Assembly: GCA_035631875.1 (NCBI GenBank) | Contig: DASQHX010000011.1 | Location: 1 to 64,000, forward strand | Origin: Nitrosopumilaceae archaeon | GTDB lineage: Archaea; Thermoproteota; Nitrososphaeria; Nitrososphaerales; Nitrosopumilaceae | DNA length: 64,000 bases | Direction of reading: 5' to 3' | In this document: positions 1 to 29,952 of the stretch, piece by piece | Numbering within the stretch: the first letter of the stretch is position 1 | Layout of the letters: every line of letters starts with the position of its first letter | Notes under the pieces: model-generated | Told to the model about the DNA's origin: nothing | The model's input: only the letters and a program-made list of their open reading frames with translations | The model's database searches: none | Made by a program: the position numbers and the translations under genes

Positions 1-375
1 CACAACAAATCAGCATCAGTCTCCGAATCACCATCATTCACTGATTCAGTCTCTACTTCATCAAGAACTATGACTAAATCAATCTCAGAGTTACCGTCCT
101 TCACTGACTCGGTCTCTACAAATAGAACAATAACTAAATCAATCTCAGAGTTACCATCTTTCACTGATTCAGTATCTCAAACCAAGACAAAGGTCGCATC
201 CATCTCAGAATCACTATCCTTCACTGACTCAGCATCTACATCCGTAGTCCACAACAAATCAGCATCAGTCTCAGAATCACTATCCTTTACTGACTCAGTA
301 TCTACATCCGTAATACACAACAACTCAGTTTCAATCTCAGAGTCACTTTCCTTCACTGATTCAGCAACTTCCGCA
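1..375 (+). repeat. Six tandem FTDS repeats (60-66 bp units)
   Basis: The codon pair for Phe-Thr of the FTDS core begins at 37, 100, 160, 220, 286 and 352, giving unit lengths of 63, 60, 60, 66 and 66 bp. Units differ mostly at synonymous positions and in the linker (TSVVHN, TSVIHN, TNRTIT, QTKTK). The array continues to the left of the window, so total copy number is unknown. It is a coding repeat, not a CRISPR: there are no unique spacers and the frame stays open. Confidence 0.9.
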
Positions 376-26175: not shown

Positions 26176-27186
26176 ATGTTAGAGAAGCTGCAAAATCTTA
26201 ACTTTGTTGGCTCAATTGTTGTTTTAAATGATTTTTTTCTAGACAGAATAATAAAGATAGATGACGCTGCAAAATTATTTGATCTTGTTTTACAAAAAAA
26301 AACTCTTGGGGGAAGTATAAGGGATATTCCTCAGGTTGATTTGAAGGGGGGTAATGCAACAAATGTTGCATTTGCACTTGCAAGACTTGATGCTCCAGTT
26401 TCATTGATTACTGTCGCAAATAAGACAAGCTCACAAATTCTTCACGATGCATTTTCAGAGTTTCCAAAATCATCTTTGTATATTATTGACGGAAAACCAG
26501 GCATGACTACCTCATTTGAATTTAACAACAATGGAAGCGTTGTAAATGTAATGTTGTCTGATTTAGGAGACAATGAAAATTTTGGACCTGAAAAACTTGG
26601 TTCAAATGAACAAAATGCAGTGAAAAATGCAGACGCAATAATAATAACAAATTGGGCAAGCAATAAGAAAGGTACAGAACTTTCAAAATTTGTATTTGAA
26701 AAATCACTAAAATCTTTACATTTTTTGGATCCAGCGGATATACAAACAAGACAAGGTGAATTCAAAATGGCAATATCTGAACTTGCACCAAATCTTCATT
26801 CTTTATCTCTAAATGAAAACGAATGCAATCTGCTTTTAAAACAATTTGGACTAGGAAATATAACTAAAGAAAATGAAACTAAAAGACTCGTTTCTGAACT
26901 TTCAGAAAAAACATCAATACCAATTGATTTACATACTACTTTTGGAGCTTTTTGGTCAAACGGTAAAGAGACAGCATTTGCAAAATCCTTTCCTACTGTA
27001 GTAAAGTTTGTTACTGGTGCAGGAGATGTGTGGGACGCCGCAAATATTTTGGGTTATCTTGCTAAACTTGAACCAAAAGAAAGATTACTTTTTGCAAATG
27101 CCACAGCATCGTTGTATGTTGGCAATTCAAATGGGATGCCACCAACAATGCAAGAAGTATTATCGTTGATTGCTGAGGTTCAATAA
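26176..27186 (+). CDS. PfkB family carbohydrate or nucleoside kinase
   Basis: 336 residues. GGNATNVAFALARLDA is the N-terminal glycine-rich substrate motif of the ribokinase/PfkB family; VTGAGDVWDAANI carries the catalytic Asp near residue 283. Substrate is not determinable from sequence; sugars, nucleosides or sugar phosphates are all possible. The N-terminal 40 residues are unlike standard ribokinases. Nine bases after the thermosome gene, same strand. Confidence 0.85.
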   Translation: MLEKLQNLNFVGSIVVLNDFFLDRIIKIDDAAKLFDLVLQKKTLGGSIRDIPQVDLKGGNATNVAFALARLDAPVSLITVANKTSSQILHDAFSEFPKSSLYIIDGKPGMTTSFEFNNNGSVVNVMLSDLGDNENFGPEKLGSNEQNAVKNADAIIITNWASNKKGTELSKFVFEKSLKSLHFLDPADIQTRQGEFKMAISELAPNLHSLSLNENECNLLLKQFGLGNITKENETKRLVSELSEKTSIPIDLHTTFGAFWSNGKETAFAKSFPTVVKFVTGAGDVWDAANILGYLAKLEPKERLLFANATASLYVGNSNGMPPTMQEVLSLIAEVQ

Positions 27187-27398
27187 TAGCTGTATAATTT
27201 ACCATGTTTATCGAGCATTATCATGTTGATGTTTGACTCTGCAAGACGCTCAAGAGATTCGGTAGATACATATCCCTTGCCTTGAATCACTATCTTGTCG
27301 AACAGACAAGCACTAGCTGGTAGTTGCAAAACTTCTTTCGTGTTAGAAAACGGATCTATTCCTTGTGAGAATACTAGTCTAGTGTTTTTACTTTGATT
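27180..27398 (-). pseudogene. Cas1-like N-terminal domain remnant
   Basis: In the 243-base gap after the PfkB gene, one minus-strand frame is open from 27437 down to a TGA at 27180-27182. It has no ATG near its 5' end. Its ~72 codons include RLVFSQG, then FDKIVIQGKGYVSTESLERL followed by AESNINMIMLDKHGKLYSYY. This matches the usual layout of a Cas1 N-terminal beta domain: a strand with I-V-I-x-G, a G-Y-[IV]-S-T-E-[AS]-L helix start, A-E-x-x-I, and L-D-x-x-G-K-L. The catalytic C-terminal half is absent, because the frame ends inside the 3' end of the kinase gene. I therefore read it as a decayed fragment of a cas1-solo/casposon-type gene. No CRISPR repeats or other cas genes were seen. Confidence 0.5.
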
Positions 27399-27429
27399 GA
27401 TAGACCATAACCGTGTAAGAATAATGATT

Positions 27430-27750
27430 TCATGAGATTAGTGTTGTGCCACTGCCTGATGATGTATCGGAACCACTCGATAATTTAGCTCCACTAGATG
27501 AAGGTTGAGTAGAATCTATTCTTTTATTCCAATCAATAGACCATCTTATGCCTAAATATACCAATCCAGCGTAAGAAGTTAAAATTATGACAGATCCGAT
27601 AAATTCGTGGGGCAAATAAAAATCTAGAACGGATGCCACAGACCACGTCAATATAAGTAGTAATCCTCTACCTAATTTTTTAATCAGATAAAACGCTACT
27701 AATTGTGTTATAACGGTTGGTGCTAATAGTCCTATAATCTGCCATTTCAT
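27430..27750 (-). CDS. Small membrane protein with Ser/Gly tail
   Basis: About 106 residues from the ATG at 27750, chosen because GAAGGT lies five bases upstream; an ATG at 27783 adds 11 basic residues. Three hydrophobic helices (ending near TQLVAFYLIKK, LLLILTWSVASVLDFYL, VIILTSYAGLVYLGI) precede a short cytoplasmic segment and a low-complexity Ser/Gly tail (SSGSDTSSGSGTTL). Not recognised. Its 3' end lies next to the Cas1-like remnant on the same strand. Confidence 0.6.
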   Translation of the reverse strand: MKWQIIGLLAPTVITQLVAFYLIKKLGRGLLLILTWSVASVLDFYLPHEFIGSVIILTSYAGLVYLGIRWSIDWNKRIDSTQPSSSGAKLSSGSDTSSGSGTTLIS

Positions 27751-27863
27751 ATTTACCTTCTTTGATTTATTTTCCCTTGACATCAATAATTTGTTGATCT
27801 TTACCGAACCTTAATCTTTACGACAACAGCATATCTTTGTGTGTGAAAGGGGGCAGACTATTT

Positions 27864-29387
27864 TTACTGAGGTTCAATAGTTGCCGGTGGTTTGCTTGAA
27901 ATTACATAGCTTACCCAGGCAGCATCCTCAATCTCATTAGTGATTCTATTGCTTATTTTCTCTAGAATATTAATAGGAAGTCTTGTCCAATCTGCGGTCA
28001 TTCCATCTATGGAATCCACTACTCTGACAGTAACAATATAACCATATTTTCGTTCATCTCCTACCACTCCTACTGCTTTATCATCTCCTACTGCTGCATA
28101 AGCTTGCCAAACTTTATCATGCAAATTTGCTGTGACAAGTTCATCTTCAACAATCTTGCTTGCAAGCTTACAAATTTGCAGTTTCTTTTCCGTTACTTCA
28201 CCAATTATTCTAACTGCAAGACCAGGTCCTGGAAATGGGTGACGATTTAACAATTTATCAGGTACTCCAAGAGCCTTTGCAACCTTTCTTACCTCGTCTT
28301 TATAGAGAAAACGTAATGGCTCTAATACTTGCATGTTAAGCCATGAAGGCAAACCGCCAACATTGTGGTGTGTTTTTATCACTGAAGCAGGTCCTTTTGA
28401 TACACCACTCTCAATTACATCTGGATAGAGTGTTCCCTGAGCCAACCATTTGAAGGGACCATTTTTTTCAGCAAACTCTGTAAATATCTGAACAAATTCT
28501 TCTCCGACAATTTTTCTTTTTTGTTCAGGATCTGTTATTCCTTTTAATCTTTTAAGAAACCTTTCTTTTGCATTTATGTGTGTAAAATTTACTGCAAAAT
28601 TATTTTTGAACATGTTTTCCACTTCTTGTTCCTCATTTAATCTTAAAAGACCATTATCCACAAATACGCATTTGAGTCTGTTTCCTATTGATTTTTGAAT
28701 CAAAAGTGCTGCTACTGTAGAATCCACTCCGCCACTTATACCACAAAGGACATTACCATCTATCTTTGAAATTTCAGCTACAGTTGTTTCAATAAAGTTT
28801 TCAATTGTCCAATCTTGTTTTGCTCTACATATATTTATTACAAAATTTCTAAGAATTTCTGTTCCTTTCTCGGTGTGAACTACTTCTGGATGAAACTGTA
28901 TTCCATAAATTAGCTTTTGTTTATTTGCAATAGCAGCTGCATGAGAACTTTCAGTATGACCTATTATGTCAAAACCATCTGGAATTTTTTCTGCGGCATC
29001 TCCATGACTCATCCATGCTCTTATTGATTTGCCCATGCCAGATAGCAAATCAGAATCATTATCTACAGTAAGAGAAGAGGAACCATATTCCTTATTTGCA
29101 CGCTTAACCTTACCTCCAAAATTATTAACTATCAATTGATGGCCATAACATATTCCTAAAACAGGAAGACCAATATCAAATATGCCTGTTTTTGGTTTTG
29201 GCGAGTCATTATTATAAACACTGGCAGGGCCTCCAGAGAATATGATTCCTTTTGGATTTAATTTTTTTAGCTCTTCAAGTGATATGTCAAAAGGTACGAG
29301 TTCTGCATATACAGAAAACTCTCTAATTCTTCTACAAATTAGATGACTATACTGTGATCCAAAATCTAGAACAACTATCTTGTCCAT
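27864..29387 (-). CDS. guaA: GMP synthase (glutamine-hydrolysing)
   Basis: Converts XMP to GMP. Two domains in one chain of 507 residues: a class I glutaminase (GICYGHQLIVNNFGG with the nucleophile Cys, IQFHPEVVHT with His/Glu) and an ATP pyrophosphatase with the PP-loop CGISGGVDSTVAA, followed by the dimerisation tail DWTRLPINILEKIS and the final KPPATIE(P). I chose the ATG at 29387 (MDKIVVLDFGSQYSH), which is canonical; a longer frame to 29411 would overlap the upstream gene. guaB, the preceding enzyme, is at 31674. Confidence 0.97.
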   Translation of the reverse strand: MDKIVVLDFGSQYSHLICRRIREFSVYAELVPFDISLEELKKLNPKGIIFSGGPASVYNNDSPKPKTGIFDIGLPVLGICYGHQLIVNNFGGKVKRANKEYGSSSLTVDNDSDLLSGMGKSIRAWMSHGDAAEKIPDGFDIIGHTESSHAAAIANKQKLIYGIQFHPEVVHTEKGTEILRNFVINICRAKQDWTIENFIETTVAEISKIDGNVLCGISGGVDSTVAALLIQKSIGNRLKCVFVDNGLLRLNEEQEVENMFKNNFAVNFTHINAKERFLKRLKGITDPEQKRKIVGEEFVQIFTEFAEKNGPFKWLAQGTLYPDVIESGVSKGPASVIKTHHNVGGLPSWLNMQVLEPLRFLYKDEVRKVAKALGVPDKLLNRHPFPGPGLAVRIIGEVTEKKLQICKLASKIVEDELVTANLHDKVWQAYAAVGDDKAVGVVGDERKYGYIVTVRVVDSIDGMTADWTRLPINILEKISNRITNEIEDAAWVSYVISSKPPATIEPQ

Positions 29388-29391
29388 AACT

Positions 29392-29952
29392 TCACTTTTC
29401 TGAATTCTCAATCATACGGGAAAATGACCATGATGCTGTGTTTATGATTTCATTCACTCTTTCTCTTTCACGATAATTTTTGATCAAAATTTCTCTGATT
29501 TTATTTCCATCTTTATTTATTATGCAATTAATTACTGCATCTTCTGATATCTTTCCATTTTGTACCTCCAAATTGTCTTTGTTTTCCATTCCGCCAATTA
29601 TTCTACCTAGGAAAAATGACTTGAATGGATGAGTTTCTGTATCTAGTATAACATCTTCCGATGGAATGATTACAACCTCATCTGGTGTGACATGTGCGTT
29701 TGCAATAATCTTATTATCTGCACTTCTTTTGATTGGTATCAAGGTAACTTTGTCTGGTAATGTGACACTTTTTTGTTCACTCTTAGATATCAAAGAAGAT
29801 GCCTTGTTGAAGCTAGATTGTTTTATAACCGAATCTAAAATAGCAAGATTTTTTTCTAATTTCTCTATGTCTTTTTGACGTTGTTCGATCTCCGCAAAAA
29901 TCCATTCTTTTAACTCTAAAATGTCACGAATCTGTTCTTCAGAGTAATCCAT
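29392..29952 (-). CDS. Conserved-looking coiled-coil protein, unknown
   Basis: 186 residues. An N-terminal helical stretch (LKEWIFAEIEQRQKDIEKLEKN... to about residue 45) looks like a short coiled coil; the middle (about 70-130) is beta-rich with no known motif; the C-terminus is helical (REILIKNYRERERVNEIINTASWSFSRMIE). No cysteines, no membrane segment. It sits 4 bases before guaA on the same strand, so it is likely co-translated with GMP synthase. Role unknown. Confidence 0.65.
   Translation of the reverse strand: MDYSEEQIRDILELKEWIFAEIEQRQKDIEKLEKNLAILDSVIKQSSFNKASSLISKSEQKSVTLPDKVTLIPIKRSADNKIIANAHVTPDEVVIIPSEDVILDTETHPFKSFFLGRIIGGMENKDNLEVQNGKISEDAVINCIINKDGNKIREILIKNYRERERVNEIINTASWSFSRMIENSEK

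Follow-up and report, generated by a model that had tools for sequence, protein, structure and literature searches.

Remnant of a casposon of the guaA type between pfkB and guaA in a Nitrosopumilaceae archaeon

In an ammonia-oxidising Nitrosopumilaceae archaeon (GCA_035631875.1, contig DASQHX010000011.1), the gap between pfkB, an intact PfkB-family kinase gene (26176–27186, plus strand), and guaA, the intact gene of GMP synthase (27864–29411, minus strand), contains a minus-strand open frame at 27437–27180. The question raised by this locus, which is part of the 64,000-nucleotide stretch analysed here (the window), is what this frame encodes and how it came to lie between two housekeeping genes. 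The original prediction, made from the letters alone, had likened it to the N-terminal domain of Cas1 and offered two origins, the scar of a casposon or a domesticated fragment. Casposons are mobile elements whose movement depends on an enzyme related to Cas1 of CRISPR systems, and the CRISPR adaptation machinery is believed to derive from them.

First of all, the frame reads ...KNTRLVFSQGIDPFSNTKEVLQLPASACLFDKIVIQGKGYVSTESLERLAESNINMIMLDKHGKLYSYY*, and sequence comparison shows it to be the N-terminal domain of a casposon's integrase, a member of the Cas1 superfamily. With profile A2, which consists of seven full-length thaumarchaeal casposases and is non-circular because the window sequence was left out, the fragment is recovered from the host genome at E=3.9e-15, and two further, shorter cas1 5′ ends are found in the same genome. 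The first order-wide profile (A1) gave E=6e-32 for the window; this value is circular and is not used, since A1 contained the window fragment, and A1 was replaced by A2. In addition, the fragment matches Cas1-like ORFs (about 260–390 aa) of related archaea at E values of 1e-9 to 1.5e-19, and 55 of 66 residues are identical to those of the guaA-site copy in genome G288. Given the profile result and the matches in related genomes, the recognition of Cas1 by eye was correct beyond chance. Against the fragment alone, Pfam PF01867 gives E=0.003, below its curated cut-off, and PADLOC Cas1 gives E=1.9e-4; a Pfam Cas1 match was not obtained anywhere in the host genome, and searches of Pfam, NCBIfam and PDB with the single sequence could not decide the matter, their hits being faint and in part pointing wrongly to CoA-disulfide reductase. 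Casposon scars can thus easily be missed, since short stubs of cas1 score under the standard profile cut-offs.

The true start of cas1 is the ATG at 27433–27431, in whose frame the Cas1 N-terminus MKSLFLHGYGLSIKV is read, and one frameshift in the A-run 27389–27385 links this frame to that of 27437–27180; because the run is a short homopolymer, the frameshift might be an error of sequencing. The frame described as start-less is thus present but does have a start, the ATG at 27433, which shares bases with the stop of the preceding ORF, with the frameshift between. The cas1 (casposase) 5′ fragment occupies 27183–27433 on the minus strand and ends after about 90 residues, so that the catalytic C-terminal domain is absent, as had been proposed. 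The N-terminal domain is homologous to that of CRISPR-Cas Cas1, a member of the same protein superfamily; unlike the latter, its neighbours are a casposon terminal inverted repeat (TIR) and cargo, not cas genes, and array-like CRISPR repeats are not found in the window, in agreement with the original prediction.

The fragment is part of a larger feature. In three genomes of the same genus (G002, G003 and G004) and one of a sister genus (G024), pfkB and guaA overlap at their 3′ ends with no 680-bp stretch between them, which places the insert at 27186–27865; the cas1 fragment does lie in the gap between the two genes, and the whole feature extends well beyond the stretch first marked (27180–27398). 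The insert is bordered by a target site duplication (TSD), TATTGAACCTCAGT on the guaA side (27879–27866, minus strand, at the guaA 3′ end) and TATTGAACCTCAGC on the pfkB side (27185–27172, minus strand), which form a direct repeat identical at 13 of 14 bp, the second copy standing where the empty sites predict it. The TSD length of 14 bp, ending at the start of an A-run, was read from complete or tandem elements. Retention of the pfkB-side copy is not independent evidence, because the C-terminus of pfkB needs the duplicated stretch. At the guaA stop lies the TIR AAAAATAGTCTGCCCCC (27849–27865, minus strand), which completes the stop codon TAA; it is the motif AAAAAnnnnnnCCCCC, which recurs in many loci at the edges of casposons next to guaA, aEF-2 and further target genes. 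A distal TIR was sought in the window and none is recognisable, so the position of the element's far end is deduced from the TSD together with the empty sites; of the inverted repeats and target duplication to be expected around an inserted element, the duplication and the guaA-proximal TIR alone remain.

The order within the remnant is TIR, cargo ORF and cas1 5′ part. The cargo, orf118 (27430–27786, minus strand), is a predicted small membrane protein that has a distant relative (about 35%) in another part of the same genome, a conserved protein of ~90 aa, and its stop overlaps the start of cas1 in the tetranucleotide ATGA (27433–27430). Full-length aEF-2 casposons show the same order as the window: host gene, TIR, small ORF, ATGA and cas1. 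The cas1 fragment runs directly into the distal TSD, at which it is truncated, with a 4-nt microhomology TATT. The 680-bp remnant does not encode PolB, and in the host genome neither a casposon PolB nor a complete cas1 or casposon was found; the small conserved genes that neighbour PolB in family 1 are likewise absent from the window. At the left end of the window (15–366), tandem repeats of 60 and 66 bp were also seen, probably belonging to a repeat protein.

Complete elements at the same site were found in related genomes. Locus L256 of genome G220 has the window's own neighbourhood: thermosome, pfkB, a casposon with both TIRs, and guaA. This element encodes a 371-aa Cas1 (PF01867, E=1.9e-50) and a 621-aa PolB (PF03175, E=4.3e-26), its flanks share the TSD TATTGAACCACAAT, and further remnants lie between it and pfkB. 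The second complete casposon at guaA (L257, G336) has TIRs, TSD, PolB (PF03175) and a full Cas1 (PF01867), on a contig that begins in guaA and ends soon past the element, so that pfkB is outside view. In G288 (L092), guaA is followed by a 1.7-kb TIR-flanked mini-element with an uninterrupted 90-aa ORF of the Cas1 N-terminal part; both TIRs were found in G220, G288 and G336, and stubs or pieces at the guaA site occur in G010, G270, G272, G321, G392 and G054. With a strict limit (TIR within 40 nt of the stop), 12 of 63 guaA-end loci, in nine genomes, carry the TIR, a count from a biased sample that is not to be read as a frequency, several loci being duplicate fetches of one genome and some having been picked as already known. 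As a side observation, two loci (L046 and L047, in G030 and G011) have an unrelated pfkB–guaA region of ~1.6 kb with a PKD-like repeat protein and a TIR-like remnant TAAAAATAG at the guaA stop. The proposed insertion between two housekeeping genes with later decay is thus borne out by the empty site in congeners and by intact relatives. At the locus no short gene was seen that is intact, conserved and provided with a start codon of its own, the congeners having no such sequence and the window copy being frameshifted. Precise casposon excision has been observed in vivo in Methanosarcina mazei (PMC10359463), and therefore the empty site of the congeners may be original or restored.

Compared with known families, the elements at guaA are closest to thaumarchaeal family 1 (NitAR1-C1, NitDev-C1 and others; PMC4046053, PMC6563490), with which they share a Cas1-type casposase, a TSD of about 14 bp, integration at the 3′ end of a housekeeping gene that remains undamaged and, in the intact guaA relatives, a protein-primed PolB and perhaps also small polB-adjacent genes. 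The window copy differs in being a remnant. The described targets of family 1 are ef-2, phosphoribosylamine-glycine ligase and intergenic sites (PMC6563490, PMC4046053), whereas the elements considered here target guaA, and their Cas1 makes up a clade of its own, with a shorter N-terminus and 36% identity to the aEF-2-type Cas1 used for comparison. Family 2 (NitNCS1-C1, AciBoo-C1; PMC6563490, PMC6614799) is also casposase-driven and inserts at gene 3′ ends with a TSD of 14–15 bp, but its target is tRNA-Pro, and its PolB and accessory genes are different. No paper on a casposon at guaA or GMP synthase was found in the searchable literature, subscription journals lying mostly outside it, and the guaA-targeting casposase clade is apparently undescribed so far.

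Taken together, the 680-bp insert is read, with a probability of about 0.95, as a decayed family-1-like casposon of a guaA-specific lineage at the guaA 3′ end. We infer the following order of events. A casposon of this lineage would have entered the 3′ end of guaA, and a 14-nt staggered cut of the target by the casposase would have produced the TSD. The TIR would then have completed a new guaA stop codon, so that neither guaA nor the overlapping pfkB was damaged. A later deletion, ending at the distal TSD by way of the TATT microhomology, may have removed the distal TIR, the polymerase genes and the catalytic domain of Cas1, after which the leftover cas1 stub would have acquired its frameshift, and the remaining scar would be immobile.

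The most serious alternative is that the copy was never complete here, a truncated casposon having been integrated through its true TIR and a broken internal cas1 end that was joined to the target. The exact abutment of the cas1 fragment on the 14-bp TSD speaks for it, whereas two other scars in the host genome, at the NADH-dehydrogenase-like and aEF-2 sites, look like deletions and have no TSD copy at the truncated end; it is considered unlikely. As a rule for stubs in general, truncated integration was rejected, since among truncated copies only the window has a TSD copy at the truncated end. Far less probable is a domesticated product, that is, an N-terminal Cas1 piece or orf118 kept for the host, for example to interfere with casposase dimers. 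N-terminal-only Cas1 fragments are indeed common across the order, and the G288 mini-casposon retains its uninterrupted 90-aa ORF, but the window copy is frameshifted and absent from congeners, other stubs have only about 20–38 codons, too short for a domain, and stub lengths differ widely; of the two origins first offered, the scar is therefore favoured over domestication. Chance resemblance or another Rossmann-like protein, suggested by weak CoA-disulfide reductase matches in a single-sequence PDB search (E=0.28), is refuted by the casposase profile, the complete casposons at the same site and the guaA Cas1 clade.

The two other scars of the host genome are worth describing in their own right. 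The second scar (L090; G000:C9, about 410600–411150), 3′ of an NADH-dehydrogenase-like gene, contains a TIR, a membrane ORF and the first ~33–38 codons of cas1, with the breakpoint at GTAAAAA in cas1 (microhomology); the site is empty in G002 and G004, and in G001 it also holds a stub, whose cargo ORF is another one and whose junction lies near the same place. The third scar (L091/L132; G000:C10, about 277900–278710), 3′ of aEF-2, contains a TIR, a methyltransferase-like ORF and the first 28 codons of cas1, and the aEF-2 site of G004 has a different cargo and stub. Across the order, a count by eye gave roughly 28 cas1 pieces with the N-terminal part only versus 6 with the C-terminal part only, and deletions seem to retain the 5′ side of cas1 plus its TIR. 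In G345 (L103, 1–4100), tandem TIR-flanked mini-casposons of about 0.8 and 3.2 kb have a perfect 14-bp TSD in common, the first with only a broken N-terminal part of cas1.

As for the lineage, the guaA-site Cas1 sequences, six in all with the fragment from the window among them, group as one clade (support 100/100) against 20 others, a grouping that rests partly on fragments of 66–95 residues; in the same tree the aEF-2-site sequences form no single clade. The guaA-site lineage is separate and appears to aim at the guaA end. Between G220 and G336 the guaA-type Cas1 proteins share 77% identity, and the G220 protein shares 36% with the aEF-2-type Cas1 of Ca. Nitrosotalea devanaterra (LN890280; L053). 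The PolB proteins of the G220 and G336 casposons are 76–77% identical to that of the N. devanaterra aEF-2 casposon, and two small genes of G220 match the small genes adjacent to its PolB at 45% and 36% identity. With PolB this close (76–77%) and Cas1 so distant (36%), the choice of target seems to go with the casposase, and the simplest reading of these comparisons would be that the casposase was exchanged on a common backbone. Directly upstream of the guaA-type cas1 of G220 (L256, 6601–6933), an ORF was seen that starts with MTLKGKQNCYNIKFL, like the 5′ end of an aEF-2-type cas1; it is possibly a fossil of the casposase exchange.

The scar itself is ordinary decay and an example of how easily casposon scars escape notice; what is of interest is the clade and the gene it targets. 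On balance, it is somewhat favoured that these elements are a new lineage, in which a guaA-specific Cas1 replaced an aEF-2-specific Cas1 on a family 1 backbone and the exchanged casposase set the target, and that repeated loss left stubs of TIR, cargo and cas1 at the ends of a few housekeeping genes across ammonia-oxidising archaea, making these ends recurrent docking sites. The guaA-tied and aEF-2-type casposases, with their closely similar backbones, are a natural pair for testing which part of the protein sets the target.
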